A stretch of DNA of 64,000 nt from Rahnella sikkimica (GTDB taxonomy: Bacteria > Pseudomonadota > Gammaproteobacteria > Enterobacterales > Enterobacteriaceae), in the NCBI RefSeq assembly GCF_002951615.1, contig NZ_CP019065.1:1-64000 (forward strand). The letters run 5' to 3'. Made by a program: the position numbers and the translations under genes. Shown here one piece after another: positions 527 through 14,852 of this stretch. Under the pieces are notes generated by a model. The model searched no databases, was not told the DNA's origin, and saw only the letters and a list, made by a program, of their open reading frames with translations. Position 1 is the first letter of the stretch. Every line of letters begins with the position of its first letter.

Positions 527-604
527 TAAAGATTCCTTTAATAGCGCCGCATCTAATTAAAGATTTCTTTAATAACATTATTGTGGATTAAAAACATCTT
601 TAAT
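525..604. promoter_or_regulatory. Three 18-bp inverted repeats at exact 31-bp spacing
   Basis: Three near-identical palindromes, consensus ATTAAAGATTyCTTTAAT, lie at 525-542, 556-573 and 587-604. The third reads ATTAAAAACATCTTTAAT. Start-to-start spacing is 31 bp both times, about three helical turns, so all three sites face the same side of the DNA. The first overlaps the Fic start codon. This is a textbook arrangement for cooperative repressor binding, probably autoregulation of the Fic gene, whose relatives often carry a C-terminal winged helix. Confidence 0.75.
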
Positions 605-811
605 TATCCCTATGCGTTTAGCATCAAGGGTTAAAACTGACATAGGGACATATACTCCCTATGTCCAAGGCTTTCCCTGAGAAATTTTTCGTCCTCGTCT
701 TTCTTACTCATTTAAGAAATACAGATTAACGTCAGAATAATTAAAGTTCTGCCCTCTTGCTAGTCGCCCCTCTGACCTTAAAACAATCTGCCCTTAAAAA
801 CCTCCTCTAAT

Positions 812-944
812 ATTTCGCATGCGAAATGTGTATTATATATTATCGGTATTGATATTTTATTTTTAATGTAATATAATTAGCCATATAGAGATACGGAAGG
901 CCGTATCTCTGCCCGGCGTAACGCCAGTCTCACAGGAGATATCA
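812..944 (+). promoter_or_regulatory. Leading-region promoter/leader cassette, copy 1
   Basis: The cassette contains, in order: the 16-bp palindrome ATTTCGCATGCGAAAT (812-827); TATC-N6-GATA (841-854); a sigma-70 promoter TTGATA (849-854), 17 bp, TATAAT (872-877); a leader hairpin with a perfect 9-bp stem GAGATACGG/CCGTATCTC and AAGG loop (888-909); a second hairpin GGCG-TAA-CGCC (915-925); and an AGGAG ribosome site before the ATG at 945. It drives the radC-like gene. Confidence 0.85.
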
Positions 945-1414
945 ATGCATCTCGTCAATACAGTTACAAACACATTTGAATCTGACACCACGATCATCGA
1001 AATGGCTAAACAGATACTCCAAGGCCGCATGAAGGTTCTGGATGTGACTTTCAATTCCAGTCAGTCTGTTAAAGATTTTCTGTCTTTGGATTTAGCCGCA
1101 GAGGAGAGAGAAGTTTTTGCGGTCCTATTCCTTAATACTCAAAACAAGCTGATCGAATATCGTCGGATGTTTTTTGGTTCCGTGAAAAGCGTCGATGTTT
1201 ATCCGAGGGAGATTATTCGTGCAGCAATGACGTTGAATGCCAGTGCGTTCATCCTTTCTCATAATCACCCTTCAGGTTATTCAGAGCCAAGCGAAGAAGA
1301 TCGTCGCGTAACGGCTCTAATTGAAAAGGTCGCGGCAATGCTGGGTTGAGTTACTTGATCATATCGTCGTCGTACGGAACTACGGTTTCTTTTGCTGAGC
1401 GTGGTTGGCTTTAA
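945..1414 (+). pseudogene. RadC/JAB-family protein, 3' end frameshifted
   Basis: The first 134 residues are a plasmid RadC-like protein. The metal-binding JAB1/MPN signature SHNHPSGYSEPSEEDRRVT is intact at about residues 105-123. The frame then stops, but the expected tail is still readable in other phases: VELLDHIVV near 1345-1370, then VSFAERGWL with a stop at 1414. Two single-base shifts are needed to join them. The missing tail is about 20 residues. The molecular role of plasmid RadC-like proteins is not established. A cassette promoter and an AGGAG ribosome site lie directly upstream. Confidence 0.8.
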
Positions 1415-1523
1415 TTTTAATTTTGCCGCCCTTGTGGCGGCTTTAGGAGTGTTAAATGGAAATGCAGGCAGTTTACGAAGTCACCCCCTGCACTCTTAGA
1501 AAGAGTGTCTTTTACCTGTTTCG

Positions 1524-1730
1524 TTGGGCTGGGTTGCACCAAATAAAACAGAGCTCTCTTTTGTGTTAACCCAGGCAGGCATGAGTATCCAGGAATTTGC
1601 ATTACTTATGGATGTTGATCAGAACTACGCTAAGAGCTGGCTGGAAACAGACCATAAGGTGCCTTACGCGCTCTGGTCAGTGCTTTGTGTTTGCGCTGGT
1701 TATGGACAAATTTGGAGATGGAAGAGTTAG
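1524..1730 (+). CDS. Small helix-turn-helix-like protein
   Basis: A 68-residue open frame from a TTG. The stretch SIQEFALLMDVDQNYAKSWL followed by VPYALWSVLCVCAGYG looks like a Cro/Xre-type DNA-binding domain followed by a hydrophobic helix. No ribosome site fits the TTG. A stronger start (AGGAG, then ATG at 1456) lies in another phase and runs only about 37 codons, so a frameshift may separate the two parts. A GCCGCC/GGCGGC hairpin precedes that site at about 1423-1442. The palindrome of cassette 2 begins two bases after the stop. No function is assigned. Confidence 0.45.
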   Translation: MGWVAPNKTELSFVLTQAGMSIQEFALLMDVDQNYAKSWLETDHKVPYALWSVLCVCAGYGQIWRWKS

Positions 1731-1732
1731 AG

Positions 1733-1870
1733 ATTTCGCATGCGAAATCATGCGTGTTATTTTAATTATCTATATTGATAATTAGATGTAATGTGAGTTA
1801 TAATACTCACACAGCGACGGAAGGCCGGAGCTGTACCTAGGCGAATACGCCATACTCAAAGGAGCAATTC
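1733..1870 (+). promoter_or_regulatory. Leading-region promoter/leader cassette, copy 2
   Basis: 16-bp palindrome at 1733-1748. An extended inverted repeat AATTATC-N6-GATAATT (1764-1783) overlaps the -35 TTGATA (1775-1780), followed by 18 bp and TATAAT (1799-1804). The leader stem is ACAGC-ga-CGG, loop AAGG, CCG-ga-GCTGT, keeping the pairing of the other copies with different bases. A GGCG/CGCC hairpin and CTCAAAGGAG precede the ATG at 1871. Confidence 0.85.
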
Positions 1871-2938
1871 ATGTCTCAGTCTTTGCAAGAACGTAAAGTA
1901 AGAATCTTATCAACACGCCCTGAGCTTTCAGCTTATCTCATTGATATTCCTTCTGATATCGCTGCGCGCGCTTTTCACAATGTATCGTTCTCCCCAGAAC
2001 AACGTGGCTTAGAAATACAGGTGGAATATGCCTCACGCATTACAGAACAGAAAACCCGTATTACGTTAGAGATTGAAAATGCGATCGCCCGTAATGCGGT
2101 GATCCAGGCAGATTGGCCAGAACAGCTGGAGGAGTGGTTCGAGACTTACCGGCAGCGCATGAAGGTTTTGTTTATGGGCTACTTGGCGACCATGTCTACC
2201 TGTGCAAGCCCTATGATTACAGGCCCTGCCCGTTTCCCTGTAGAGCGTCAGCGTAAACGTAATGCTTCAGCCGATAATAAGTACGCGGCCGTTACTGCTT
2301 ATACGACACATTCCCCTAATCGTTTCCTGAAGCGAGTCATGCCTTTTGGCAATGGCGTTGCTATCGCCTCTAATGCTCCGAACGCCAACGAGCTGCTCAT
2401 CAGTAAGTTGAATGACCGTATTAAGCTTCAGGAAACTATGAAGGCAGCCAACAAAATTGTCGGAAAGGTTTATAAGAAAGGGTCTCCTGCAGGGGTATCT
2501 GCCGAAATGAGAGATCGTTGCGCGCAGCAGTTGGTAGACGAGCTTGCCATCCCATTAGATGAAGCACTGTCCATGCTTAAGTCATCCGATTATTCCGCAA
2601 AAATCATCGCGTTCTGGCCCTATCAGCTTTCAAACAATAATCAAGAAATCCGCCGGCTCGAACAGCGGGTGAAGGACGTAGAGCGTTTGCAGCAGGCTGC
2701 CCCCGAAATTGCTCAGGTATTGGGAAACGGCATCGAGATACGCAAAAGTGATGACGGCAAAATCGAGATCCATTTTGGATACAAGCCAGATGCAGAAGTA
2801 CGCGACTTTTTGTGTAAGAAGGCTTTCAAGTTTTCCCGCTATCGTAACAATACGTGGGTTCGTCGCATCAGCGTCAATGCAGTTGCGGTATTTACTCGGG
2901 AAGTTAAGCCTATGCTTGAAAACTTACCTCAAAAATAA
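1871..2938 (+). CDS. Conserved leading-region protein of unknown function
   Basis: 355 residues, strong ribosome site (CAAAGGAG) and a dedicated cassette promoter. Residues about 175-270 (MKAANKIVGK ... LSNNNQEIRRLEQRVKDVERL) form a segment I associate with many phage and plasmid proteins of unknown function. It ends in a short charged coiled coil. The C-terminus (FKFSRYRNNTWVRR) resembles the small closing domain seen in such proteins. No catalytic motif is recognisable. Position and promoter suggest early expression in the recipient. I do not assign a function. Confidence 0.75.
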   Translation: MSQSLQERKVRILSTRPELSAYLIDIPSDIAARAFHNVSFSPEQRGLEIQVEYASRITEQKTRITLEIENAIARNAVIQADWPEQLEEWFETYRQRMKVLFMGYLATMSTCASPMITGPARFPVERQRKRNASADNKYAAVTAYTTHSPNRFLKRVMPFGNGVAIASNAPNANELLISKLNDRIKLQETMKAANKIVGKVYKKGSPAGVSAEMRDRCAQQLVDELAIPLDEALSMLKSSDYSAKIIAFWPYQLSNNNQEIRRLEQRVKDVERLQQAAPEIAQVLGNGIEIRKSDDGKIEIHFGYKPDAEVRDFLCKKAFKFSRYRNNTWVRRISVNAVAVFTREVKPMLENLPQK

Positions 2939-2939
2939 A

Positions 2940-3038
2940 ATATCGGTGTTGATATCTAAAGATTGAAATGTTAACTTAAGTATTCAGGTGGGCGGCCACC
3001 TGAATACTCAGGCATACGCCAGGCTCAAAGGAGAAATC
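2940..3038 (+). promoter_or_regulatory. Leading-region promoter/leader cassette, copy 3 (degenerate)
   Basis: ATATC-N6-GATAT (2940-2955) overlaps TTGATA (2949-2954). The -10 region is weak (TAACTT near 2972). The leader stem is the longest of the set, ATTCAGGTGG/CCACCTGAAT with a GCGG loop, followed by the GGC-ata-GCC hairpin and CTCAAAGGAG. This copy has no 16-bp palindrome upstream. The nearest one lies 118 bp downstream, just before parA. Confidence 0.7.
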
Positions 3039-3131
3039 ATGATAATCGAAAAAATATCCCTGCTTCTACGCACTAAATTCTCTCTAACTCGATTCGCGCT
3101 GTGTTCTTTTTCTGTTCACGGCGATATCTAG
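3039..3131 (+). CDS. 30-residue ORF behind cassette 3
   Basis: An ATG ideally placed behind the conserved CTCAAAGGAG site opens 30 codons (MIIEKISLLLRTKFSLTRFA ...). It could be a real small protein, a leader peptide for parA, or the stub of a deleted gene, since recombination between repeated cassettes would remove genes. It resembles nothing I know. Confidence 0.4.
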   Translation: MIIEKISLLLRTKFSLTRFALCSFSVHGDI

Positions 3132-3155
3132 CTACGCCATCCAATCACACTACAT

Positions 3156-3171
3156 ATTTCGCATGCGAAAT
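3156..3171. promoter_or_regulatory. 16-bp palindrome upstream of parA
   Basis: A perfect copy of ATTTCGCATGCGAAAT ending 17 bp before the parA ATG. Here it is not followed by a TTGATA/TATAAT promoter, so it is better placed as a ParB-type centromere site or as an operator between an upstream promoter and parA. Confidence 0.75.
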
Positions 3172-3188
3172 TTCAAAAGGAAGTAACG

Positions 3189-4067
3189 ATGAGCATCAAT
3201 CAGGCTTCTGCGCTCGGTAAAGTTATCGTTGTTGGTAATCAGAAAGGTGGCGTAGTTAAATCACAATCGTCTAACGAGATCTCTTATAACCTCCAGCAGT
3301 CAGGCTTTAAAACTCTTTGTATCGATATGGACTGGACCGCCGGCTTTACCGAGCGCACTTTTCCAGAAGGAATGCCGTTAGAAATAGAGCGTGAACCTTT
3401 CAAGCATGAGTTCACACCGGGCGGCGCCCACACGCATCAACTGTTTTTCATAAATACTGACGTTCAGCCCATTGTTTTGGCTGATGGCCGCCATTTTATA
3501 GGTACCACCTATGAGTTGAACGAGATCAACTATCGCCCGACTGATTGCATCTTCGATTTCAAAGATCGCGTTGAAGCGCTTCGGGAAAAATATGATTTCA
3601 TCGTTATCGATTCTAACCCGTCGTATTCAAACGTAATGATAGCGAGCCATCTTGTGGCCGATTATTTGATCATCCCAACGTTGCTTGAGAAGTCATCACG
3701 AAATGGCGTGGCCAAGCAGCTGGCTTACATGCAGAAAATCAAAAAGAACTACAACCCGCGGCTGTCATTCCTCGGCGTATACGTTACTCAAGCTGTGGTG
3801 TCGAATTACAAGAAAGAGTTGCTTGAGGGACGGTTCACCGCAGTAGATACCGAAAACCTCCGGATGCTGTTTGAGATCCTTCAAAACAGTGGATACGACG
3901 ATTCAAAAGTATTGGCGTATATCTCTTACGTAGCTACCACAGCAAAAGAAGCGATAGAGCTGGGTCTGACGTTTAAAGAGTACTCGCCTAACTCGTTACC
4001 GGCTAAACAGTATGACGAACTGACTCATAAGCTGGTGAAGCTGATCCAGGAGGCTGACCGTGGCTAA
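3189..4067 (+). CDS. parA: ParA-family partition ATPase
   Basis: 292 residues, no N-terminal helix-turn-helix extension. A deviant Walker A lies at about residues 18-27 (KGGVVKSQSS, keeping the signature lysine in KGG). The Walker A' region is DMDWTAGFTE, without the common DPQ, and Walker B is VIDSNPSYSN. P1/F-type ParA proteins also vary at the residue before the second lysine (KGGVSK, KGGVYK), so activity is plausible. ParA binds DNA non-specifically and pulls the ParB-centromere complex. The start has AAGGAAG upstream and the 16-bp palindrome 17 bp away. The stop overlaps the GTG of parB. Confidence 0.9.
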   Translation: MSINQASALGKVIVVGNQKGGVVKSQSSNEISYNLQQSGFKTLCIDMDWTAGFTERTFPEGMPLEIEREPFKHEFTPGGAHTHQLFFINTDVQPIVLADGRHFIGTTYELNEINYRPTDCIFDFKDRVEALREKYDFIVIDSNPSYSNVMIASHLVADYLIIPTLLEKSSRNGVAKQLAYMQKIKKNYNPRLSFLGVYVTQAVVSNYKKELLEGRFTAVDTENLRMLFEILQNSGYDDSKVLAYISYVATTAKEAIELGLTFKEYSPNSLPAKQYDELTHKLVKLIQEADRG

Positions 4068-5175
4068 GAATTTCAAGCAGCAAATTGCCGCGCGCAATAA
4101 ACAAGGTGCTCAACAACCCTCGGTACCTGGCGTTCAGGAAAACCTGATCCAGCGAGAAACCGCGGCCGCTCCCGCAGCTGCAGGCGGCGGACATAACTTA
4201 CTGTCAGATATCGCACGTCCTGAACTGATTGCCGGTGGCCAGATAGTACGGGTGCGTTTAAGCGAAGTGTATGCAACGGAGCAGGTGCGTCCAGATGAGG
4301 ATTTCGAAGAGTCGACGTTAGAAGGACTTTCAGACACTTTCTCTGAAGTCGGTATTCTCACCCCTCCTCGGGCTTTTCCGCGCGATAAGGACGGATACCG
4401 CATTTGGTTAGGGGAAACACGTGTCCGGGCAGCACGACGCCGCGGGGATGAGTTCATCGATCTTTATGTAGGCACGCCCCCAGATGATGACAAAAAACGA
4501 CTGCTTGGGCAGCTGATTGAAAACTTACACCAGTCAGGATTAAAGCCACTGGCTACAGCTAACTCAATGCTCAAATTGAAAAATGACTGGGGTATGACTG
4601 GGGAACAGATAGCTAAGTCACTCGGTAAACCGACGGCATTTGTAAGTAAACACATGCGCTTGTGCGATGCGCCGGCGGTGATCACCTCTCTGCTGAAAGA
4701 CAAGATCACTGCTGATGTAGATTTAGTTTATACACTTTGCCAAATCTACGACGCGGCGCCTGAGGAAGCATCTCGTTTAGCGACTATCGCCAGACAGGAA
4801 AAGCTAACGCGTTCGCAGGCGAAATCAGTTCTGGATGGGATTAAGGGCCGTAAACCTAAACAGGCCCCTAAGACAAAAGAAAAACCGCAGTTAACAGACG
4901 ATCTGAAACAGGATGGCGAGCAGCACGAGCCTGATAACGAAACCTTAACAGGCAATGCGCAAACTTCTGCCGATCTGCATCAAGCTGATGTTGTCGTACC
5001 ATCAAGCGATGTTCGTGAGGGGTTGCCAAAAGTAATGGTTACCTTAGGTCAGGAGCATGGCCATATTCTCCTGAAAGTGCCTGCAGAAAGCGACATGATT
5101 TGGGTTCAATTTCCATCCGGTGAAAGATGCGTTGAAGCGATTTCTTTGATTGTCCGGGGAGTGAAGGAAGCATGA
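4060..5175 (+). CDS. parB: ParB-family centromere-binding protein
   Basis: 371 residues from a GTG that overlaps the parA stop by 8 bp, preceded by a GGAGG ribosome site. The ParB/Spo0J N-terminal domain lies at about 60-160 (IWLGETRVRAARRRGDEF, LIENLHQSGLKPL). A helix-turn-helix follows at about 165-205 (MTGEQIAKSLGKPTAFVSKH), then a charged linker and a C-terminal domain. It binds a parS-like site. The best candidate is the 16-bp palindrome that brackets this operon at 3156 and 5950. Its stop overlaps the next gene (ATGA), so translation is probably coupled. Confidence 0.9.
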   Translation: MAKNFKQQIAARNKQGAQQPSVPGVQENLIQRETAAAPAAAGGGHNLLSDIARPELIAGGQIVRVRLSEVYATEQVRPDEDFEESTLEGLSDTFSEVGILTPPRAFPRDKDGYRIWLGETRVRAARRRGDEFIDLYVGTPPDDDKKRLLGQLIENLHQSGLKPLATANSMLKLKNDWGMTGEQIAKSLGKPTAFVSKHMRLCDAPAVITSLLKDKITADVDLVYTLCQIYDAAPEEASRLATIARQEKLTRSQAKSVLDGIKGRKPKQAPKTKEKPQLTDDLKQDGEQHEPDNETLTGNAQTSADLHQADVVVPSSDVREGLPKVMVTLGQEHGHILLKVPAESDMIWVQFPSGERCVEAISLIVRGVKEA

Positions 5176-5615
5176 CTATGAAAATAACCCCGTTTACTCA
5201 AATGTCGGGCGCTTTCCGCGCCCGAATCGTCAAAACCTGGCACATCTCATCCGAGCATAGCCCGGCTGAAGCAGCTGCACGCCTTAATGACATCGCGGTG
5301 GATAATGGCTTTGTCCGCCGGTTGAAGCCTGTGCCAGGAACAGCATTGGCAGAATGGGGGAAGTCAGGAGTTACTCCTCTATGGGCCGCACTCGCCGCGC
5401 TCGTGTTACTTTTGCAAAATGGGTGGCGTCCTGTCGCCGATGAGGAATGGGCTGGTTTTGCTGCACTTTATATTCAGCTTTGTAAATCTAAAGAACTTAC
5501 TGCTTTGCTTGAAGGCCTGCCGGCGTCCATCGATCGGCCGTTGGCAACTGGATGGATATGTGCGGCCATTGAAGAAGATGAGCGCTACCGCTTAACTAAG
5601 AAGGTGGCTCCATGA
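5172..5615 (+). CDS. Unknown protein, third gene of the parAB operon
   Basis: 147 residues starting in the ATGA that ends parB. It contains one hydrophobic helix at about residues 74-89 (LWAALAALVLLLQNGW) and is otherwise a mixed, tryptophan-containing protein. Coupling at both ends (ATGA with parB and with the next gene) indicates a role tied to partitioning or to regulation of this operon. I do not recognise the family. Confidence 0.7.
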   Translation: MTMKITPFTQMSGAFRARIVKTWHISSEHSPAEAAARLNDIAVDNGFVRRLKPVPGTALAEWGKSGVTPLWAALAALVLLLQNGWRPVADEEWAGFAALYIQLCKSKELTALLEGLPASIDRPLATGWICAAIEEDERYRLTKKVAP

Positions 5616-5932
5616 CGTTCATGCAGTTGGAAAAAATCTTGTTGGAGACGGGTAGAAAAAGTGATGGTCGAGCTCTGATTGCATACCTTCTGGACTCCTA
5701 TGATGCAGGAGTTACTGATACCGAAGCGGACTCAGTTGAAGCAGAAACCGGCCTGAAAAAAACCAACATCTCTGCAGTGGCTAAAAAATTAAGCGAAGCC
5801 AAAGTGATTGAGATCCTGTATTTAGATACCAGCGTCGAGGGCTCGACGCTGTCTGTTCTAAGGAACGGTCGCTGGTCAAAACCATTCTATCGGCTAACCC
5901 CGCAAATTTTATCGTTGTATCGCCGTGCCTGA
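5612..5932 (+). CDS. Possible winged-helix protein, fourth gene of the parAB operon
   Basis: 106 residues, start overlapping the previous stop (ATGA). The layout LIAYLLDSYDAG ... ETGLKKTNISAVAKKLSEAKVIEILYLD resembles a winged-helix domain: a helix-turn-helix with a recognition helix, then a strand pair. A DNA-binding regulator is therefore plausible, and it is one candidate to bind the nearby 16-bp palindrome, the other being ParB. This is inference from pattern only. A palindrome copy lies 18 bp after the stop, between this gene and convergent umuC. Confidence 0.65.
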   Translation: MTFMQLEKILLETGRKSDGRALIAYLLDSYDAGVTDTEADSVEAETGLKKTNISAVAKKLSEAKVIEILYLDTSVEGSTLSVLRNGRWSKPFYRLTPQILSLYRRA

Positions 5933-5949
5933 AGTAATGATGGGACCAG

Positions 5950-5965
5950 ATTTCGCATGCGAAAT
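5950..5965. promoter_or_regulatory. 16-bp palindrome downstream of the parAB operon
   Basis: A perfect ATTTCGCATGCGAAAT in the short gap between the convergent ends of the parAB operon and umuC. There is no promoter here to control, which favours a centromere-like (parS) role over a simple operator role. Confidence 0.75.
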
Positions 5966-5969
5966 CTGT

Positions 5970-7235
5970 CTACCCTATTTTTGCTTTCGGAAGCTCGTCC
6001 CATCTTGTTGTGTATGCGGGTGATAGCATCTCTCTTCTCATTTGCCACGCAGGTTCAATTCCCTGGCCTGCGAACCATATTCTCCCAAGCCCTTCCTGAT
6101 TGATTTTATCCACGACCGACATTAATGCCTCACTGCCTGGACGTGGGGATTGGTCATCGAAGAGAGATAGCTGTGCCAACCGCGTAGGAGAAAAGTCATT
6201 AAGCATGACGCCGGCTTTGGCGTAGCGAAATCCAGGCTTCCAGATTCTGTCAATGATGCGCTGGGCTGCAGCTATTATGTCGCGTGAGTCTTGCGTTGCT
6301 GTGAGAAGTTTCTCTGTGCCGGATAGACTACTTTGTGGCTCATTCGCAAAAGGTGACGTTCGCATAAATACAGAAACATGCCGGCAAAACTGTTTCTCCT
6401 GGCGAAGCTTTTCTCCGGCTCGCTCGGCATATCGACAAATAGCCTGCCTCATTTCATGCTCTTCTGATATTCGTTGGCCAAAACTACGGCTGCAGATAAT
6501 TTGCTGCTTCGCAGGAACCATCTCTTCCATTGGTATGCAGCTTTCTCCTCTCAGTTCCCTGACAGTGCGCTCCATCACCACGCCAAAATTTTTCTTTATA
6601 AAGCGGATATCTGTGTCAGCCAGCTGCAGTGCCGTTTCAATCCCCATGACGTTAAGTTTGGCTGTTAACCTCCTGCCGATCCCCCATATTTCACCTATGG
6701 GTTGGAGTGCGAGTAACTTACGTATCCGAATGGGGTCAGTAAGGGCCACAACTCCTTTCGTTGCGGGCCATCTTTTGGAAGCATACTGGCAAGTTTTAGC
6801 TAAGGTTTTCGAGGGTGCTATGCCCACTCCAACCATTAACCCCGTATGTCTGAATACTTCGTTACGAACATGATGACCAAAGCTGTCAAAAGATTGAACG
6901 GCATCGATGCCCGTTACGTCGAGCCAGCTCTCGTCAATAGAGTAAACGCTTGATCTTAATGCCAAGGATTCTAAAACCGTATGCACGCGCGCACTTAAAC
7001 TCGCGTAAAGAGCATAATTTGAACTAAAAACTGCAATATTATGTTTTTTAATATGCGGCTTTAGCTCAAAATAGGGCATTCCCATAGGGATTCCTAAGTT
7101 TTTAAGCTCTTTCGACCTGGCTATAACGCAACCATCATTATTTGACAAAATTGCTATAGGTCTACCGCGTAAATCAGGCCGAAAAAGGCTTTGGCAAGAA
7201 GCGTAAAACGAATTGCAATCTGCTAATGCAAACAT
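5970..7235 (-). CDS. umuC: UmuC-type Y-family DNA polymerase (Pol V subunit)
   Basis: 421 residues, full length for UmuC/MucB/ImpB. The N-terminus ALADCNSFYASCQSLFRPDL carries the first catalytic aspartate. YSIDESWLDV near residue 100 is the second catalytic motif (SIDE). The helix-hairpin-helix and little-finger regions follow, then the C-terminal segment. It performs error-prone translesion synthesis with UmuD'. The start lies 4 bp after the umuD stop, so the two form one operon controlled by the LexA box at 7675. It is one of only two leading-region genes, with umuD, read against the cassette-driven genes. Confidence 0.95.
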   Translation of the reverse strand: MFALADCNSFYASCQSLFRPDLRGRPIAILSNNDGCVIARSKELKNLGIPMGMPYFELKPHIKKHNIAVFSSNYALYASLSARVHTVLESLALRSSVYSIDESWLDVTGIDAVQSFDSFGHHVRNEVFRHTGLMVGVGIAPSKTLAKTCQYASKRWPATKGVVALTDPIRIRKLLALQPIGEIWGIGRRLTAKLNVMGIETALQLADTDIRFIKKNFGVVMERTVRELRGESCIPMEEMVPAKQQIICSRSFGQRISEEHEMRQAICRYAERAGEKLRQEKQFCRHVSVFMRTSPFANEPQSSLSGTEKLLTATQDSRDIIAAAQRIIDRIWKPGFRYAKAGVMLNDFSPTRLAQLSLFDDQSPRPGSEALMSVVDKINQEGLGRIWFAGQGIEPAWQMRREMLSPAYTTRWDELPKAKIG

Positions 7236-7239
7236 TGTC

Positions 7240-7656
7240 TTACCCGCGAGTGCTGTGAATTATGTACGTTACAACGCCAAATATCTCCAAGCTGTCCGGA
7301 TTAACAAACATTGTTGCATAATCGGGATTCATAGCCTCTAAAGCCAGGCGGGGGTGTGTGCATAATCGTTTAACCGTAAACTCACCATCGATGGCCGCCA
7401 CAACAACATCACCATGTCTCGCAGTCTCCGCTCTATCAACAACCAGTAAATCCCCACTACTTATTCCTGCCAAAATCATGGATTCGCCTTCTGCACGAAT
7501 GTAATAACTGGCACTTGGGTGTTTGATGCAGTATTGAGTTAAATCAAGCTCTTGCTCAACAAAATCTGCAGCAGGACTAGGGAATCCACAAGGGCAACTA
7601 TCTAAAAATAGAGGGATTTTCGATGGTATTTCATTGCTTACTGTGAATATTTTCAT
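7240..7656 (-). CDS. umuD: UmuD-type SOS protease/polymerase subunit
   Basis: 138 residues. The autocleavage site Cys-Gly is visible in SCPCGFPSPA (about residues 22-25), with the catalytic serine in GESMILAG and the lysine in GEFTVKRL. This is the complete S24 peptidase layout. RecA-stimulated self-cleavage gives UmuD', which joins UmuC as the mutagenic polymerase. It is the first gene of umuDC, with a LexA box 19-38 bp upstream of the start codon. Confidence 0.95.
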   Translation of the reverse strand: MKIFTVSNEIPSKIPLFLDSCPCGFPSPAADFVEQELDLTQYCIKHPSASYYIRAEGESMILAGISSGDLLVVDRAETARHGDVVVAAIDGEFTVKRLCTHPRLALEAMNPDYATMFVNPDSLEIFGVVTYIIHSTRG

Positions 7657-7674
7657 TATTGCACCAAAAAAAAC

Positions 7675-7694
7675 TACTGATTATATATACAGTA
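7675..7694 (-). promoter_or_regulatory. LexA (SOS) box of umuDC
   Basis: TACTGATTATATATACAGTA has CTG and CAG separated by exactly 10 bp, with AT-rich centre and outer TA/TA, matching the LexA consensus at every key position. It sits just upstream of umuD, so the operon is SOS-induced. Confidence 0.93.
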
Positions 7695-7805
7695 TTATGG
7701 TGTCGGATATTCCTAGATAGCAAGTCTGAGGACGGAGGTTTTTTTATTAGTCTGTTTTACATAAAGAAATAAATACTACAAATTTTGGGTAATTGGGCGT
7801 CCTGT

Positions 7806-7882
7806 CGGCTGTCGTGAACAGAGCCAGCCGAGCTGTCTCTGCCCCTGCGGGCTTTGCCCGCGGGCTTCCATCCTGACGCAAC
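7806..7882. repeat. 77-bp direct repeat, first copy
   Basis: From CGGCTGTCGTGAACAGAGCC to CATCCTGACGCAAC this segment is nearly identical to 15981-16056. It contains a CCTGCGGGC/GCCCGCGGG-type hairpin. Neither copy is coding. It directly precedes the larger structured repeat at 7907 and is part of what I read as a single-strand initiation or ssDNA promoter region. Confidence 0.75.
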
Positions 7883-7906
7883 ACCTTTAGCTCAAATGAC
7901 CGCTCG

Positions 7907-8126
7907 TAAGCCTCAGCGAGCTGAGGCACGCCACGATACAGCTCGCCAGCTCGCAAACGTGGGGCTTCGCCAGCGGCATATTAATCACGGAGCACGTTGT
8001 TCGATTGCCTGGCTTAGCAGGACGAGGGGCGGGCTGAGTGGAATATATACATTAGTGACCGCTGTCGCGGGCTACCGGCGGCGATGGACACCGAGCATTA
8101 ATATCAGCCAGCTGCCGCCTGCAAAA
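7907..8126. repeat. 220-bp structured repeat A (ssi/Frpo-like candidate)
   Basis: Aligns along its length with 13866-14083. Shared blocks include GCCTCAGC..GCTGAGGCACGCC, CAGCTCGC..AGCTCGC, GGGGCTTCGCCAGCG, TGGCTTAGCAGG.CGAGGG, CCGCTGTCGCGGGCTACCGG and GCCGCCTGCAAAA. It is dense in short inverted repeats. Both copies lie in a leading region immediately upstream of a 16-bp palindrome and cassette promoter. F and ColIb-P9 carry folded single-stranded promoters or primer sites (Frpo, ssi) in comparable places. The match here is by position and structure, not by proven sequence identity. Confidence 0.6.
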
Positions 8127-8189
8127 GAACATCCAGCTCACCTAAGCGATCTGATGAAGGGGGAATTCAATAAATGGCAAGGTAGTAAG

Positions 8190-8328
8190 ATTTCGCATGC
8201 GAAATTAATAATGTTTATTTTATATTATCAGCATTGATAATATAGTGTATTTAGCGGTATAATAGACCCTTAAGGACGGAAGGCCGCCCTTACATCCGGC
8301 ATAACGCCAAACTCAAAGGAGTCTTCAA
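8190..8328 (+). promoter_or_regulatory. Leading-region promoter/leader cassette, copy 4
   Basis: 16-bp palindrome at 8190-8205. An extended inverted repeat ATATTATC-N6-GATAATAT (8222-8243) overlaps TTGATA (8234-8239), then 18 bp and TATAAT (8258-8263). The leader stem is TAAGG-a-CGG, loop AAGG, CCG-c-CCTTA, then GGC-ataac-GCC and CTCAAAGGAG before the ATG at 8329. Confidence 0.88.
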
Positions 8329-8559
8329 ATGAAAGATGCAGATATCGTTTTATTACCATCAGGAACCTTTACTCGCGATCAAGCCGAGGCTGTTGCTGCT
8401 GCTTATAGAAATGTGGCTATTGAGGATGATCAAGGGACTCATTTCCGTTTAGTAGTACGCGTATTTGGGCAAATGGTTTGGCGTGCATGGAATTTTGAGC
8501 CTAACGCAGGAGAGGGGCTTAACAAGTACATCTCCAGCGAAGGCGTGAAAAACCAATAA
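8329..8559 (+). CDS. DUF905 family protein (YkfF-like)
   Basis: 76 residues. [33 protein letters not shown] and [12 protein letters not shown] are the hallmark blocks of DUF905, a small family common on enterobacterial conjugative plasmids and in E. coli YkfF. The function is unknown. It is the first gene behind cassette 4 and is followed after 62 bp by the large ParB-like gene, so both are probably one early transcript. A CCGGAGGCT/AGCCTCCGG hairpin lies between them. Confidence 0.9.
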
Positions 8560-8621
8560 GTCATTAAGTTGCCGGAGGCTTAGAGCCTCCGGTATGCCCA
8601 ACAAATACCTGAGGAATTATC

Positions 8622-10691
8622 ATGTCAAACTCTAAAAAAACGACGGCATCCAAATCAGCTAAATTGTCCCCGATAGTGAACCGCGAAGAGCAAATCAAAG
8701 TTACAGAGCAGGCTTTGGTTAACGTGCCGGTAGAAATGGTGCCATTTAGCCAGCTGGCTCTGTCTCCACTCAATGTGCGCAAAGCAGAACCGGATCCGGT
8801 GAAATTGCAAGAACTGGCCGACACCATCAAAGCCGTGGGCGTCCTGCATAATCTTATCGTGCACCGCCTGCCCGAGGGTCAGCTGGGTGCCGCCGCCGGT
8901 GGCCGCCGTTTCCGTGCGCTGAATATCCTGCTTGTCGCGGGGGCGATCGCGCCGGATTACGCCGTGCCGGTGAAAATTGTCGGCGACGACGTGGCAGAGG
9001 TGATTTCTGCCATCGAGAACTTGCAGACCGAAAGCATGCATCCGGCTGACCAGATCATGTCGTTCGCCCGCATCAGTGCCAGCGGAAAAACGGCGGCAGA
9101 AATCGGAGCCGCGATGGGCTACAGCACCAAACACGTTCAGAAATTCCTGCGACTTGCAGGGATGGCTCCGGCATTACTCGCCGAACTGGCTGAAGACAAC
9201 ATCAACGTTGACCAACTGGTGGCTCTGTCTGCCAGCGAAGACCACGAACGTCAGCAAAATACGTGGAAAAATGCCTACGGCATTTACAAAACACCAAAGG
9301 AATTACGCAATGAGGTGCTGCGCGGCGAAGTGGCCGCCGTGGGTAACCGCCTGCTGGAGTTCGTCGGACGTGACGTCTACGAACAGGCGGGCGGCGGGTT
9401 CCGCTATGACCTGTTCACCGACGAAGGGTTTATCAGCGATACCGTACTGCTGCAGACCCTGACCCGACAGAAACTCACCGAAATCGCCGTCGGTATCGCG
9501 CAGGCAGAAGGCTGGTCATGGTCAGAGGGGCGAAGCGAGGGCGTTACCACCTACGGTGAAGACGCTGAGCTTTACCTGCTGCTCGGACAGCCCAATCCGG
9601 CGTTTACCGACGAACAAAGTACGCGCATGGCCGAGCTGGGCAGGCAGCTGGACGAACTGTCAGAGCAGGACGACGGCGATGATGCTGACCATGCCGCACT
9701 GGAACAGGCTGCAGACGCCTGTCAGGCAGAAATGGACGGCATCGAAGGCGCGGCGAAAATTCGGGCATGGTCTGACGATGTCCGTGCCCGAGGCGGGGTG
9801 GTGGTGTCACTGCTGCGCGGTGAACTGTCCGTGCGTCGCGGCATCATGAAGCGCTGCGACCTGCCGGAAACTGAGCGTGATGGCAATAACAGCGGGGTGA
9901 CCCCGCACCTCAGCAGCACCCGTACCGAGAACAGTACGCCGGAGGTTTCGCCAGCGAAAACGCTGTCTGCCGTACTGGCCAAAAGCCTTTCCAGCGAGCG
10001 CACGTTAGCCGTACAGGCCGCGCTGGCAGAGCAGCCGCAGATGGCACTGGTGATTTTTGTCCACGACTGCCTGAAATCCACTTTCAACCACCGGTCTTAC
10101 ACCGCCTCGACCCTCAAGGTGACGCTGCATGCCAAAACCGGCCTGATGCTCGACAATGCGCCGACGTCTGCCGACGGTCTGGCCATGCAGCACCTTACCG
10201 CGATGCACGACGCGTGGCTGAAGCTGCTGCCCGAAGACTGGCATAAAAGCTGGGACTGGCTGCTGACGTGGGATACGCAGCAGCTGATTAATGTGATGGG
10301 CTATTGCCTGGCTAAAACGCTCGACGGCGCATCAGAACGTCTGAGCGACAAAGACGGCAAAGCGGGCAAAGACCTCGAACCGGTCGAGGCGCTGCTGAAC
10401 TTCACGCTGCGCGACTGGTGGTTGCCGACCAAGGCAAACTTCTTCGGACGCATCAGCAAGGAGCAGATTGCTGACAGTCTGCTCGATGCCGGACTGAGCG
10501 GGGCGTCGCGCGATGTCCTCAAAATGAAGAAGGGCGACGCCGCCGAACGGGCTGAAGAGGACATCACACATACCCGCTGGGTGCCTGATTGTATGTTGCC
10601 GGTCATTGCGCCAAGCGCCTTGCCGGAAAGTGACTTGGTCACGGTAACCGACGCCGAAACCCCATCTGAAACCACCGGCATTGCCGCCTGA
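8622..10691 (+). CDS. Large ParB/Spo0J-like protein (YubM-type)
   Basis: 689 residues. The ParB N-terminal domain lies at about 40-140: LALSPLNVRKAEPD, then AAAGGRRFRALN (the GERR-type box) and AIENLQTESMHPAD. A helix-turn-helix follows at about 150-185 (KTAAEIGAAMGYSTKHVQKF). A roughly 450-residue C-terminal part is shared with leading-region proteins of the F-plasmid YubM type. No ParA partner is adjacent. Such proteins are thought to be ParB-like DNA-binding proteins, sometimes called nucleases, but activity is not shown by this sequence. The gene precedes psiB and psiA, as in F-type leading regions. Confidence 0.85.
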   Translation: MSNSKKTTASKSAKLSPIVNREEQIKVTEQALVNVPVEMVPFSQLALSPLNVRKAEPDPVKLQELADTIKAVGVLHNLIVHRLPEGQLGAAAGGRRFRALNILLVAGAIAPDYAVPVKIVGDDVAEVISAIENLQTESMHPADQIMSFARISASGKTAAEIGAAMGYSTKHVQKFLRLAGMAPALLAELAEDNINVDQLVALSASEDHERQQNTWKNAYGIYKTPKELRNEVLRGEVAAVGNRLLEFVGRDVYEQAGGGFRYDLFTDEGFISDTVLLQTLTRQKLTEIAVGIAQAEGWSWSEGRSEGVTTYGEDAELYLLLGQPNPAFTDEQSTRMAELGRQLDELSEQDDGDDADHAALEQAADACQAEMDGIEGAAKIRAWSDDVRARGGVVVSLLRGELSVRRGIMKRCDLPETERDGNNSGVTPHLSSTRTENSTPEVSPAKTLSAVLAKSLSSERTLAVQAALAEQPQMALVIFVHDCLKSTFNHRSYTASTLKVTLHAKTGLMLDNAPTSADGLAMQHLTAMHDAWLKLLPEDWHKSWDWLLTWDTQQLINVMGYCLAKTLDGASERLSDKDGKAGKDLEPVEALLNFTLRDWWLPTKANFFGRISKEQIADSLLDAGLSGASRDVLKMKKGDAAERAEEDITHTRWVPDCMLPVIAPSALPESDLVTVTDAETPSETTGIAA

Positions 10692-10730
10692 CAGGGAATG
10701 CCGTCCCGTTAAGGGACGGCAGTTATCACC

Positions 10731-11177
10731 ATGACTAAGAACGAAATATTAACATTTGCCAAAGTACACGCGATGTCCGGCAGTGAGCTGGAACAGTACG
10801 CAGAGCGCGGGGAAACCGACCGCAGCCACCTGAGCCGCGAGGTGGTTCGCCAGCTCCATCTGCCGGAGGGTTGGGCATGCGATATCGAATACCGCAGTGA
10901 GTTTGGCGGCGATGCACCGGTCAACGTCAGGCTGTCACCGCTGGCGTATCCTGCGGTCACCGTCTGTCTGTTCAGCAGCAGTGCAGACGTGCCTTTCTGG
11001 CGGCTGTGCCTGCCGTTTGATGAGGGGGAGAGCGTGGCGTGGATTTACTGCTCGGAGACGTTCGACCCTGAGCGTATCTTTTATACACTGCAGAGGGTTG
11101 CGACGCTGGTGTCTGCCGGTTTCACCACCGCCGAACGTCTGGCCGCCGCCTTGCGACAGACGGGAGCCGCGGTATGA
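10731..11177 (+). CDS. psiB: PsiB, plasmid SOS inhibition protein
   Basis: 148 residues, usual length for PsiB. The centre DIEYRSEFGGDAPVNVRLSP aligns with the E. coli PsiB block EYGSEFGGFFPVQVRFTP, and the flanking helices are similar. PsiB binds RecA and delays SOS induction when single-stranded plasmid DNA enters the recipient. It lies 39 bp after the ParB-like gene, with a GCCGTCCC/GGGACGGC hairpin in the gap, and its stop overlaps the psiA start. Confidence 0.93.
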   Translation: MTKNEILTFAKVHAMSGSELEQYAERGETDRSHLSREVVRQLHLPEGWACDIEYRSEFGGDAPVNVRLSPLAYPAVTVCLFSSSADVPFWRLCLPFDEGESVAWIYCSETFDPERIFYTLQRVATLVSAGFTTAERLAAALRQTGAAV

Positions 11178-11889
11178 TCCCCCGTCATTTGTCTCTTGTT
11201 CCGGTGAACCCGTTTCAGCGGGCGGCACTGCAGGCCATCATCGAGGTGGAAGAACGTCGGCAGCGCGGTCAGTACCCCTACGCGGTGGCATTGCTCCGCC
11301 AGCTGCGCGGCGGGGGGCAGGACGCATCGGTGCGGCAGACGTGCGCCGTGCGGCGTCAAACTACAATCCGAAAGACCGCGCCGGTGAACCCAAAGCGCGC
11401 TATCTGGCGGCGCTCGATAAGTTGATCGAAAGCCGTGGCAGCGTCTGCCCGCTGCCGCTGTCGGGCTGCGCCGTCGGCCAGTATTTCCCGCAGACCGCCT
11501 ACCGGCACGCCGAGCGTCAACACCGGCGATGGGATGTGGGCTACCGCCGCAGGGAAAACCAGCAGGAAAAGGCGCGGCAGCAAAAGCGCAGGCGGTATCA
11601 GGTCGCGGTGGCACAGGCTGAAATCGAACTGGCGTTCGTCACGCCGTCAGCACTCGCCGCATGGTACAGCCAGCAGGAAAAACGGGGCATCTACGATGAC
11701 GACCTGACGGAGATGCTTCTGGGGTGGGGGCAGAGGTATACAGGCCTGCAGGTCAGGGGATTTTGCTCAGGACAGCCGCTGTGGGCGATCCTCGATGCGC
11801 TGGGAGGCGAACTGACAGAACGGTCGGTGGTTCAGCAGCGGCTCGATGACCAGACGTTGCCTAACCGGCTGAACGATATCCGGAGGTGA
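11174..11889 (+). pseudogene. psiA: PsiA, frameshifted in a G-run
   Basis: The ATG frame gives MIPRHLSLVPVNPFQRAALQ ... ALLRQLRGGG, matching the PsiA N-terminus. At 11312-11317 (six G) the phase is lost. A second frame continues with RIGAADVRRAASNYNPKDRA, SRGSVCPLPL and AQAEIELAFVTPSALAAWY, matching the PsiA C-terminal two thirds, and ends at 11889. One additional G would restore a protein of about 238 residues. PsiA always accompanies PsiB; its own role is unclear. Because the rest is well preserved, a sequencing error or slippage is more likely than decay. Confidence 0.88.
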
Positions 11890-11892
11890 CCG

Positions 11893-12006
11893 ATGTGGCG
11901 ATATCCCCTGCGTTGGCATTATCCGCATATTCCCTGTTCGGGTGCTCCGGTTCTGGTGTCTGAATATGTTTGCGAAGGCACGACGACCGGAATATTTCAG
12001 CGGTAA
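11893..12006 (+). CDS. 37-residue ORF coupled to psiA
   Basis: An ATG four bases after the psiA stop with a strong GGAGGTGAC ribosome site reads MWRYPLRWHYPHIPCSGAPV ... FQR and ends just before a terminator. Position and ribosome site support translation. The product is unknown. Confidence 0.45.
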   Translation: MWRYPLRWHYPHIPCSGAPVLVSEYVCEGTTTGIFQR

Positions 12007-12028
12007 ATAATGTCTTCCCTGCCCCCTC

Positions 12029-12056
12029 AATGCCGTGGTTCGCTGCGGCATTTTTT
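12029..12056 (+). terminator. Rho-independent terminator after psiA
   Basis: AATGCCG ... CGGCATT pairs across a 10-base loop and is followed by a run of T (12051-12056). It ends the DUF905, ParB-like, psiB, psiA transcript. Confidence 0.85.
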
Positions 12057-12442
12057 GTTCACTGACGCCTTTTATCGCAGCTTGCAGCGGCAGATGCCGC
12101 GCCGCTGGCACTGTCCCCGCCAGGGCGGGAACGTTAAGGATGTCGCGTTGCGCCGCCTTCGTTGTTCCTGGTCATTCTTGGTGCCGTAGTCCTGCCCGAC
12201 TGTCGCGGCCTGAACCCTAAAAGTTAGCGCCAACCCCGTGCCCGCACTGTAGACGTGCCGCCTCCCTTCAAAGGGTTCGTAAACCTGCCTTGTCACCCGG
12301 TCACCGGTATTCACGGCGCATTCAGCCCGTTCATACCAGCGCTGCGGCTTCCGCGTCAGCCCTTTTTTGCTCGGCCTATGGCACGTCTGTCGTGGGGGCA
12401 CGGCGCCGGCCGGTTCCGGTTCTCTGTATGTGGAGTGTCGCT
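12057..12442. other. GC-rich gap between psiA terminator and methyltransferase
   Basis: No convincing gene: the open frames here lack ribosome sites and conserved motifs. It contains a short CCCGCC/GGCGGG hairpin near 12117. Composition and hairpins resemble the other structured non-coding stretches of this leading region. Confidence 0.4.
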
Positions 12443-13126
12443 ATGTCCCGTTTTGTGTTGGGTGATTGTCAGCAGGTTATGTCAACTTTTCCGTCCCGTT
12501 CCGTCGATTTTATCCTGACGGATCCGCCGTATCTCGTCGGGTTTACCGACCGTTCCGGGCGTTCCATTGCCAACGATAAGCAGGGGGACTGGTTATTGCC
12601 GGTCAGCCGCGAGATGTTCCGGGTGCTCAAGAATGACAGTCTGGCGGTCAGTTTTTACGGCTGGAACCGCATCGACCAGTTTATGGCCGCGTGGAAAGCC
12701 GCCGGGTTCCGGGTTGTCGGGCACCTCGTATTCACCAAAACCTATTCGTCAAAGTCGGCTTTTGTGGGCTACCGGCATGAATGCGCCTACGTGCTGGCCA
12801 AAGGCCGTCCGCCGCTGCCGGAAAACCCGCTGCCGGACGTAATGCCGTGGGCGTATTCCGGCAATCGCTACCATCCGACAGAAAAGCCGGTGTCTTCCCT
12901 GCGGCCGCTGATCGAATGCTTCACGCAGCCGGGCGATATTGTGCTCGACCCGTTTGGTGGCAGCGCCTCAACCTGCGTGGCGGCCGCGCAGTGCGGGCGT
13001 CGCTGGATTGGCATCGAGCTGTTAGAGCAGTACCACGCGGCGGGCGTGCGCCGTCTGGCAGAATTTCAGCGTCCGCGTTCCGATATGCCGGTTTCAACCT
13101 TTCAGCAGTTCGGGAGTATGGCATGA
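12443..13126 (+). CDS. DNA (N6-adenine or N4-cytosine) methyltransferase
   Basis: 227 residues from the ATG at 12443 (MSRFVLGDC...). A longer upstream frame exists but lacks homology-like sequence. The catalytic motif IV DPPY is at about residues 30-33 (FILTDPPYLVG). The SAM-binding motif I is near the C-terminus (DIVLDPFGGSASTCVAAA), and HPTEKPVSSLRPLI lies just before it. This order, catalytic motif first, is the beta class. No partner endonuclease is adjacent, so it is an orphan methylase, likely modifying plasmid DNA early in the recipient as an anti-restriction or regulatory measure. F-type leading regions carry a similar gene (YubD). Confidence 0.9.
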   Translation: MSRFVLGDCQQVMSTFPSRSVDFILTDPPYLVGFTDRSGRSIANDKQGDWLLPVSREMFRVLKNDSLAVSFYGWNRIDQFMAAWKAAGFRVVGHLVFTKTYSSKSAFVGYRHECAYVLAKGRPPLPENPLPDVMPWAYSGNRYHPTEKPVSSLRPLIECFTQPGDIVLDPFGGSASTCVAAAQCGRRWIGIELLEQYHAAGVRRLAEFQRPRSDMPVSTFQQFGSMA

Positions 13127-13347
13127 GCAACTATCAGAATAATATTGATTTGCGCGTGGATGTGGCGGCGCTGGCAAACGCAACGTTTGAACTTCGCGAG
13201 CAGTTCCGGGCGTTTGAGAAGAAATACTTCTGGGGCAGCGAAGAGTTAACGCAGCGCCTCGCCGGTCAGGTGATCAACCAGCTCAGCGCGCAGATGCTGG
13301 AAATCTATAAACAGGTGAACGAACTCGACCACGCCTTTAAAGACTGA
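13123..13347 (+). CDS. Small helical protein coupled to the methyltransferase
   Basis: 74 residues, start overlapping the methylase stop (ATGA). The sequence is predicted to be nearly all helix (VDVAALANATFELREQFRAF, QVINQLSAQMLEIYKQ), acidic overall, and could form a coiled coil. There is no known motif. Coupling suggests co-expression with the methylase. Confidence 0.65.
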   Translation: MSNYQNNIDLRVDVAALANATFELREQFRAFEKKYFWGSEELTQRLAGQVINQLSAQMLEIYKQVNELDHAFKD

Positions 13348-13865
13348 CAGTAGCAGCATGGCCCCGCGCGGCGGGGCTATAGCCTGCATTCGCTTTTGCC
13401 AGGGCGAACGTCAACGGCCACTGAACAGGCGCTGCTGTGGCTACGCCACTGCGGCTGCCCGTTCTCCCAGATTGGAAAATACCTTCCTATGGAATGAAAG
13501 GCAGAGCCTGATTTCTGACTGTTTGCCAGTGAATGATCGTTGATGTTTTCATTATCCTGCTGTGGCTGCTGTGGCTGCTGTGGCAGGAGTTCGTCCTTTC
13601 CCCACTCGTCCTGAATATTTTCTCCCGCATAAGTCACACACGGGACATGGCCCCCTTCGGCTCATGACCAGCAAGCTGGTCAATCGTCGAGCCCGACTGC
13701 GCTAACCGGCAAGGACAAGCCGGTAAGCTCCGCGTAACCCCGCTGGGGTTACGGCCTACGGCTAGGGTCTGATGGCAACGGCCAGGTCAACCCCCGCAGC
13801 CGGCTTCGCCGCCGCACAGACACTGGCCGGTAAACCGGCCGCTAAGGAAGGGAGTAGTTCCGCCC
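13348..13865. other. Non-coding structured stretch before repeat B
   Basis: No supported gene. Several hairpins are visible: CCCCG/CGGGG near 13365, GACCAGC/GCTGGTC near 13668-13682, GTAACCCC/GGGGTTAC near 13735-13752, and CGGCC-rich pairs near 13827-13842. A CTGCTGTGG-type triplet run lies near 13558. It leads directly into structured repeat B and may be part of the same single-strand element. Confidence 0.4.
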
Positions 13866-14083
13866 GTAGCCTCAGCTAACTGAGGCACGCCCCCTACAGC
13901 TCGCAAGCTCGCTAAGGGGGGCTTCGCCAGCGTCATTATACGTATGGCGTGGTATTTAAGCCCGTATGGCTTAGCAGGGCGAGGGCGGGGAGAGTGCGAT
14001 ATATGCGCCGGAAACCGCTGTCGCGGGCTACCGGCGGCCTTTGACGAACTCGGTTTATGTAACACCGTTGCCGCCTGCAAAAA
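13866..14083. repeat. 220-bp structured repeat B (ssi/Frpo-like candidate)
   Basis: Second copy of the element at 7907-8126, with the same order of blocks and conserved CCGCTGTCGCGGGCTACCGG. Like copy A it ends about 60 bp before a 16-bp palindrome and a cassette promoter. This repeated linkage suggests that structure, palindrome and promoter form one functional unit. Confidence 0.6.
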
Positions 14084-14143
14084 CGGCTTAGGATAACTCT
14101 GCTCGTTTAGGGTAGAAGTGAAGTCTCAGAAGGCGAAAAAACG

Positions 14144-14271
14144 ATTTCGCATGCGAAATATTTTATGTTATCAGTGTTGATTGTGAGAATAAATGGAGTA
14201 TAATTAAGTACATAGAAGCACGGAAGGCCGCGCTTCTATTCGGCGAAACGCCAAACTCAAAGGAGTCCTAT
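14144..14271 (+). promoter_or_regulatory. Leading-region promoter/leader cassette, copy 5
   Basis: 16-bp palindrome at 14144-14159. TTATC-N6-GAT (14168-14181) overlaps TTGATT (14177-14182), then 16 bp and TATAAT (14199-14204). The leader stem is TAGAAGC-a-CGG, loop AAGG, CCG-c-GCTTCTA (14213-14237). GGCG-AAA-CGCC (14242-14252) and CTCAAAGGAG follow, before the ATG at 14272. Confidence 0.88.
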
Positions 14272-14804: not shown

Positions 14805-14852
14805 TTACCTTGCCGCCCTGCGGGGCGGCAATTCAATGACTTTGAGGGGAAC

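Follow-up and report, generated by a model that had tools for sequence, protein, structure and literature searches.

What controls the repeated promoter units that open leading-region genes in a Rahnella sikkimica plasmid? The stretch considered here, which we call the window, is the first 64 kb (64,000 nucleotides) of contig C4 (107,727 bases). An initial annotation had described five copies of one promoter and leader cassette in it, and proposed a regulon equivalent to, and different from, the CUP system of pKM101, with its repressor encoded in or near the window. The outline of that proposal stands, in that a repeated leading-region promoter cassette distinct from CUP is present and regulator candidates lie within the window. 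Its substance changes: the palindrome of the cassette follows a plasmid partition protein, ParB1, and is likely its parS site, and it is the partition operon, one of the five targets, whose own promoter the cassette represents. We propose, with a probability of roughly 0.6, that the cassettes form a two-operator regulon of the KorB/KorA kind, open when the plasmid enters a cell and closed once ParB1 and a partner protein accumulate.

Five promoter cassettes in a leading region

The five-copy cassette is real. Units lie at 812, 1733, 2940, 8190 and 14144, as annotated, and each starts a different gene or operon (945, 1871, 3039, 8329 and 14272). The palindrome ATTTCGCATGCGAAAT is exact in four of the five units, as had been claimed, and two further exact copies, at 3156 and 5950, had been overlooked; the window thus holds six exact copies, two of them without a cassette. 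With up to three mismatches there are eight matches against 0.36 expected, and none of 100 shuffles reaches eight. A second box, similar to TATCAATATTGATA (TATC-N6-GATA), overlaps the -35 of the cassettes. The TATC-N6-GATA pattern, which had been ascribed to every unit, is exact in four, copy 5 having TATCAGTGTTGATT instead. Similarly, the promoter TTGATA-N16-18-TATAAT is exact in only three of the five (0.01 expected), and copies 3 and 5 deviate, with TTGATA-N16-TTAACT and TTGATT-N16-TATAAT, respectively. Palindrome and box occur together in four of the five cassettes, the box of copy 5 showing one departure; in cassette 3 the box stands without a palindrome, and a good -10 is lacking too. 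The two leader hairpins described for every unit were confirmed, as were CTCAAAGGAG in four units and its variant CTCACAGGAG in copy 1, although CTCAAAGGAG by itself is weak (allowing one mismatch, seven matches where 3.27 are expected, a number also reached by 3 of 100 shuffles). The distance from the box to the ribosome-binding site (RBS) is kept at 83–88 bases across the five units. A box at 26659, antisense within an open reading frame (ORF) named by eye as secretin-like, has no leader and was taken as chance.

All five cassettes are on the plus strand. Cassette 1 (841–947; 71.5 bits) follows an exact ATTTCGCATGCGAAAT palindrome at 812–827; its box at 841–854 lies over the -35 at 849–854, and the -10 (872–877), hairpins around 895–902 and 915–925 and the RBS (929–938) lead into a RadC-domain ORF at 945–1349 (Pfam RadC). 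Cassette 2 (1767–1873; 66.1 bits), with an exact palindrome at 1733–1748, box at 1767–1780, -10 at 1799–1804, leader and RBS at 1855–1864, opens an ORF of 355 residues (1871–2938). Cassette 3 (2941–3041; 59.4 bits) is the promoter of the partition operon. It has its box at 2941–2954, a weak -10 (TTAACT, 2971–2976) and a leader with RBS at 3024–3033, opens a 30-codon ORF at 3039 ahead of the operon, and corresponds in position to the leader that pED208 and its relatives carry upstream of parA. Cassette 4 (8226–8331; 73 bits; exact palindrome 8190–8205, box 8226–8239, -10 8258–8263, leader, RBS 8312–8321) opens a DUF905 gene (8329) followed by parB2 and psiB, and cassette 5 (14169–14274; 80.2 bits; exact palindrome 14144–14159, box 14169–14182, -10 14199–14204, leader, RBS 14256–14265) opens an ORF of 111 residues (14272–14607). 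The RadC-domain ORF ends short of the Pfam profile (positions 1–99 of 121) and may be a broken gene. The 355-residue protein has no Pfam match; its C-terminal half shows 31% over 189 columns with a 438-residue protein encoded on contig C21 of genome G254, which is discussed below.

The assignment of this region as a leading region also holds. The genes opened by the five units and those of the partition operon are on the plus strand and point at a nikA/nikB-type relaxase region that starts at 18429, a leading-region arrangement, and they head towards an oriT-like stretch (18318–18406) that precedes the nikA-like gene (18429–18770) and is 77% identical to ColIb-P9 just upstream of nikA. Homologues of umuC and umuD, located between those genes, are on the opposite strand.

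The palindrome and the partition protein ParB1

The partition operon consists, on the plus strand, of parA (3189–4067, 292 residues; Pfam AAA_31, 88.1 bits), parB1 (4060–5175, 371 residues), orf147 (5172–5615) and orf106 (5612–5932). ParB1, which we propose to be a sliding-clamp regulator that binds parS, has three Pfam domains above cut-off, KorB (50.8 bits), HTH_ParB (31.3 bits) and ParB_N (27.4 bits); its profile matches the KorB structure 8qa8 (E-value 7e-11), and the helix-turn-helix region is highly conserved among nine aligned ParB1s. The two exact ATTTCGCATGCGAAAT palindromes without a cassette bracket this operon, the one at 3156–3171 lying just upstream, 17 bases before parA, and the one at 5950–5965 directly after it, 17 bases past orf106.

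Across plasmids, the palindrome goes with ParB1. We compared 22 named plasmid records, picked by hand (18 with ParB1 and four for comparison) and over-representing Yersinia, Serratia and Pantoea; the 18 come from the 681 plasmid records that match the ParB1 family at an E-value of 1e-40. The 14-bp core of ATTTCGCATGCGAAAT is present in all 18 ParB1 records, in 3–14 copies (3–7 in eight records other than the window, 3–14 in ten more), always with some close to parAB. It is absent from the four comparison plasmids (F, ColIb-P9, R46 and Rahnella H145), in which no ParB1 was found beyond a 13-bit match in F (E-value 1e-3). In most relatives examined one copy stands just before parA, and relatives also carry copies after the operon and inside parB1. 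The nine aligned ParB1s are only 44–58% identical to that of the window, yet the 14-bp core is exact throughout, and a Yersinia pekkanenii genome whose ParB1 is 57% identical has four palindromes. In the Rahnella genome itself the core occurs nowhere outside the six window copies except in the repeated contig end described below. A megablast search of window positions 800–3200 against PLSDB gave no match, and a distant search gave matches.

A precedent for such a site comes from the IncP-9 plasmid NAH7. According to PMC12421886, the NAH7 parS is an 18-bp site, TTTCTCGCATGCGAGAAA, that is bound by ParB in gel shifts. It shares the 10-bp core TCGCATGCGA with the window palindrome. Taken together, the linkage to ParB1, the sites flanking parAB, the domains of ParB1 and the NAH7 core indicate that the palindrome is very probably parS, the predicted binding site of ParB1. 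Two Serratia records (L038 and L039) have seven and five palindromes, spaced by ~160–250 bases upstream of the par promoter, in a pattern that resembles a centromere array.

We also surveyed 394 genomes of the order, a set with too few such plasmids for a linkage test. The palindrome occurs in nine of them, and in more than one copy only in G000 (11), G254 (10) and G173 (2); single matches are at chance level, because a reversed control pattern matches five of the 394. A ParB1 match at 1e-15 was found in six genomes, with a close match in G000 only. The two palindromes of G173 have identical flanks, and the 20-kb stretch inspected there contains no match to ten window proteins.

Could the palindrome instead be controlled from another locus, by a CUP/ArdK-kind regulator unrelated to ParB1? 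The general layout is indeed alike, as the IncN plasmids pKM101/R46 carry a repeated promoter element upstream of several leading-region genes (PMC6289460). However, the palindrome follows ParB1, the R46 record has neither palindrome nor leader, and nothing in the window matches ArdK or ArdR of R46. Comparing the R46 record with the palindrome, the leader model and a DNA query made from copy 1 revealed no sequence link to pKM101/R46 CUP. These comparisons led us to reject CUP homology, no shared sequence or regulator having been found, and we give a CUP/ArdK-kind regulator very little credence. The copy 1 query also returned short, weak matches in F (E-value 0.04 at best) and ColIb-P9 (E-value 0.011), which were taken as chance.

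The leader, the box and orf106 among relatives

The leader covaries. Across 12 related cassettes from three plasmids, seven of the nine pairs of hairpin 1 show compensatory change; its covariation score is 0.513 against 0.130 on shuffling, with none of 500 shuffles reaching it, and at most 0.102 in slid controls, although 42 of the 500 also reach the bare count of seven changed pairs. The inner GG...CC cap is constant. Because the pairs change on both sides while the cap persists, pairing in hairpin 1 is probably under selection as RNA or single-stranded DNA, and its location after the -10 favours RNA. The covariation evidence concerns hairpin 1, as there is almost no variation in hairpin 2 or in the RBS hairpin. 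The role of the leader hairpins is probably to set translation or mRNA stability, and our guess would be translation at CUCAAAGGAG. No Rfam family reaches its cut-off in the window. We considered a host RNA-binding regulator that reads GGA in hairpin 1 but dropped the idea, since the hairpin of the pED208 leader has no such motif.

To search the other records, we derived a leader covariance model from 12 cassettes of the window, Yersinia ruckeri pLT and Y. hibernica p2_50K. In all six other ParB1 records first tested, pED208 included, it found a single strong match, located at the parAB promoter; in pED208 and five plasmids this match is upstream of parA and adjoins a TATC-N4-TTGATA box. In total the model matches 17 of 23 records, namely 16 of the 18 ParB1 plasmids (two of which are training records) and the Y. 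pekkanenii genome, which also carries ParB1 and orf106. Two Y. ruckeri plasmids have five leaders each, p2_50K and Y. pekkanenii have two each, and the genome of the window has five, four of them repeated at the contig end. The other leader-bearing ParB1 records have a single strong match, two of them with a weak one (16–18 bits) in addition; the weak extra matches are in P. vagans (22.4 bits), Citrobacter (18 bits) and Providencia (16.1 bits). pED208 and its IncF-type relatives share with the window the ParA-ParB1-orf147-orf106 operon, the palindrome and one cassette at the parAB promoter, but pED208 has a single leader match in its whole record compared to five here. No description of a pED208 parS was found, and the word parS is absent from PMC8406263.

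The presence of box and leader follows orf106. All 16 leader-bearing ParB1 plasmids encode orf106. The two plasmids that lack the leader, those of P. heimbachae and M. wisconsensis, which are alike, also lack orf106 in the whole record and show no box in the 7 kb around parAB, yet contain 14 and 9 palindromes. Two Pantoea plasmids combine a diverged orf106 (E-value 6e-29) with a diverged box, AATCA-N4-TGATT, at parAB, and in P. vagans pPV989-94 (L041) a second diverged box, AATCAATATTGATT, stands between a palindrome and the weak leader at record positions 7421–7554, perhaps as a second cassette. Fisher values from the comparison of plasmid records (1.4e-4 and 6.5e-3) take no account of relatedness, and we do not treat them as proof.

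With fair confidence, orf106 is predicted to be a winged-helix protein, a fold that would suit a palindromic operator. In a fold comparison (VIA), Rio2 kinase and Wadjet chains rank highest, level with a large number of MarR/ArsR-type regulators; KorA is not among the matches listed, and no KorA family match was found at an E-value of 0.1 in Pfam or NCBIfam. The orf147 product is all-helical (AlphaFold pLDDT 90.5) and had no clear fold match in structure comparison. Because the box and leader follow orf106, and given its winged-helix prediction, we propose that parS serves ParB1 and the box orf106, a candidate reader of the -35 box in a KorA-like role.

The same data could be read differently, with the palindromes serving partition only, orf106 (or orf147) alone controlling the promoter at the TATC-N6-GATA box, and the parS sites carried along when the par promoter was duplicated. 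This fits the palindromes without a cassette (3156 and 5950) and those inside parB1 of relatives, the loose spacing from parS to box, and the fact that box and leader follow orf106 and not ParB1. However, parS precedes the box at all four duplicated cassettes of the window and at all four of pLT, which has the same layout (five leaders, four with a palindrome and the par copy without), and passive carry-over need not keep this order. ParB1 also has a KorB domain. We therefore regard a purely partition-related role of the palindromes as unlikely, if the most serious challenge to a role of ParB1 at the promoters.

Copying of the partition promoter and a proposed control of entry

Because the box and leader mark the parAB promoter in 16 of the 18 ParB1 plasmids, we interpret the cassette as belonging to the parA-parB1-orf147-orf106 operon, whose promoter and leader were copied before four other leading-region genes. 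A single copy, at the partition operon, is the widespread state; we observe amplification in the window plasmid and in Yersinia plasmids, perhaps also in P. vagans. The Rahnella aquatilis H145 record contains orthologues of 8362–11978 (91.6% identical) and 14852–16411 (94.4%), and neither leader nor palindrome; in that record ssb is followed by DUF905, and a plain upstream region precedes the orthologue of the gene at 14272. The cassettes are thus most simply explained as additions tied to the ParAB1 module. Cassettes 4 and 5 may have spread as a unit with their upstream DNA, since 7900–8323 and 13860–14267 are 69% identical over 440 bases.

The DNA upstream of these two cassettes contains a further class of element, which the initial annotation had overlooked at cassette 4. 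In F, the two Frpo regions show up as copies of a repeat (89%), one upstream of ssb and the other 5.4 kb beyond the first, which fits PMC9849209. In the window, a Frpo-like element on the plus strand at 7806–7882 precedes cassette 4; positions 7807–7854 are 87.5% identical (48 bases) to the F Frpo repeat, and a Rahnella plasmid has elements that share 96% identity with 7806–7883. A possible second one, at 13684–13774 on the plus strand, precedes cassette 5. The leading region of K. michiganensis pC contains two repeats with 79% identity to this stretch, one of which lies upstream of ssb; the stretch has no match to F Frpo. Positions 15962–16090 match the F Frpo regions (74%, E-value 1e-14). 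This Frpo-like stretch, 15962–16160, runs into a 45-base inverted repeat (93%) at 16114–16158, upstream of an ORF starting at about 16251.

Might the cassettes themselves act as promoters on single-stranded DNA, in the manner of Frpo/ssi, and fire on the T-strand as it enters? The leading-region setting is that of the F and ColIb-P9 elements, the presumed T-strand is the template for all five genes, and leader and box can fold on it. However, the cassettes have no match to the F Frpo repeats, with similarity confined to the separate stretches upstream, and the hairpin covariation lies downstream of the promoter. On the folded T-strand, predicted pairing is 0.51–0.82 at the -35 but low to middling, 0.05–0.57, at the -10, in a fold test without a working positive control (its scan found no qualifying -35/-10 pair in the F Frpo repeats, and its script placed the -10 of copy 5 one base off). 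We consider single-stranded activity of the cassettes improbable; a relay from single-stranded (Frpo-like) to double-stranded (parS cassette) expression is what we infer instead.

The two-operator regulon proposed here resembles KorB/KorA of the IncP plasmids RK2/RP4, in which a ParB-family protein of the par operon also has a KorB domain, palindromes are repeated before several operons, and a second short operator lies at the core promoter. In RK2, KorA at the core promoter stalls the sliding KorB clamp, and KorB also represses replication and transfer genes (PMC11790492); in RP4, leading operons including korA-incC-korB are transiently induced in transconjugants, a zygotic induction (PMC7314908). 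The window differs in its palindrome, in a winged-helix partner without a KorA match, in its conserved structured leader RNA and in a leading region of the F/I type (DUF905-parB2-psiB), and the likeness to OB/KorB and OA/KorA would be one of working principle. By this analogy, ParB1 would load at the upstream parS and slide 9–20 bp, in this plasmid, to the promoter, where the TATCAATATTGATA-like box over the -35 would be recognized by a second protein of the par operon, most likely orf106. This partner would keep ParB1 in place, as KorA does with KorB. In a plasmid-carrying cell the five promoters would be kept low. In a fresh recipient neither protein would be present, so that all five would fire once the DNA is double-stranded, and the resulting burst would make ParB1 and orf106 and shut itself down while the partition complex assembles. 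Binding, repression as opposed to activation, and timing are the parts of this scheme that we infer.

Several observations weigh against it. The link to orf106 depends on two closely similar plasmids without it and on related records, and since orf147 is likewise not annotated in those two exceptions, orf106 and orf147 are not separable as the box reader. All compared cassettes are related, so their counts are not independent. Allowing one mismatch, the TATCAATATTGATA-like box is found at nine further places besides the cassettes, in one case as an exact copy. The par copies of the window (copy 3), pLT, p2_50K, L016 and L045 have no exact palindrome just upstream, and the gap from parS to box ranges from 9–20 bases here to 26–41 in the Yersinia plasmids, 16–17 in Serratia and ~8 in several others. 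Nor is the palindrome exclusive to ParB1, because G254, a genome of the same order, has it without a close ParB1: eight of its 10 palindromes are on contig C21, four of them ahead of promoter-like repeats, with no box and no leader on that contig and a ParB that is only remotely similar (25% over 123 residues, E-value 4e-4). Finally, the ParB of NAH7 activates and does not repress.

This last point suggests that ParB1 at parS might activate the leading-region promoters, as NAH7 ParB, from sites with the same TCGCATGCGA core, activates downstream transfer genes (PMC12421886). NAH7 resembles the window further in having parS upstream of other plasmid genes with a transcriptional effect, but differs in the flanks of its 18-bp site, in its target, in the direction of the effect and in a KorA-domain ParR in the operon. 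Activation seems to us a poor fit: the promoters look strong unaided (TTGATA/TATAAT in three of five), a box that overlaps the -35 would suit repression, and an activator made from the entering operon would delay early expression.

Contig C21 of G254 is a plasmid-like contig with its own ParA-like ORF, recognized by eye, and the remote ParB. Its four TGCGGCATATTTTCGCATGCGAAA units (record L033, positions 598, 6794, 11239 and 13776) stand ahead of different genes, and a second, separate parS-promoter regulon is possible there. As to the contig of the window, the last 10.1 kb of C4 (97.6–107.7 kb) repeat window positions 1–10112 at 99.6% identity with 29 gap openings. Because its end repeats its start, C4 is most simply a circular plasmid of ~97.6 kb left untrimmed, the repeat probably being a circular overlap with uncorrected indels. 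A minus-strand ORF at 170–526 presumably resembles the N-terminal part of a Fic-type protein.

The palindrome string was not found in the open-access papers searched, and those on the leading region together with parS, ParB, KorB or zygotic induction concern, as listed, other systems or aspects. New here would be a ParB-centred regulon of the KorAB type, built by copying a partition promoter. In F, single-stranded promoters are held responsible for the early burst of expression, and conversion to double-stranded DNA for its end (PMC9849209). More tentatively, and at somewhat less than even odds, we suggest that a partition promoter has here been turned into a dispersed establishment regulon, in which Frpo-like elements act while the DNA is single-stranded and parS cassettes take over in the ensuing double-stranded phase, and in which assembly of the partition complex on the new double-stranded DNA ends the entry programme. 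The palindrome is likely the parS of a ParB family found in 681 plasmid records (E-value 1e-40), pED208 included. ParA and ParB1 of pED208 are delivered to recipients (PMC8406263), and if the regulon operates as proposed, pre-delivered ParB1 would act directly on the incoming promoters. The partition proteins would then form a concrete second layer of entry control, acting as both timer and off-switch.

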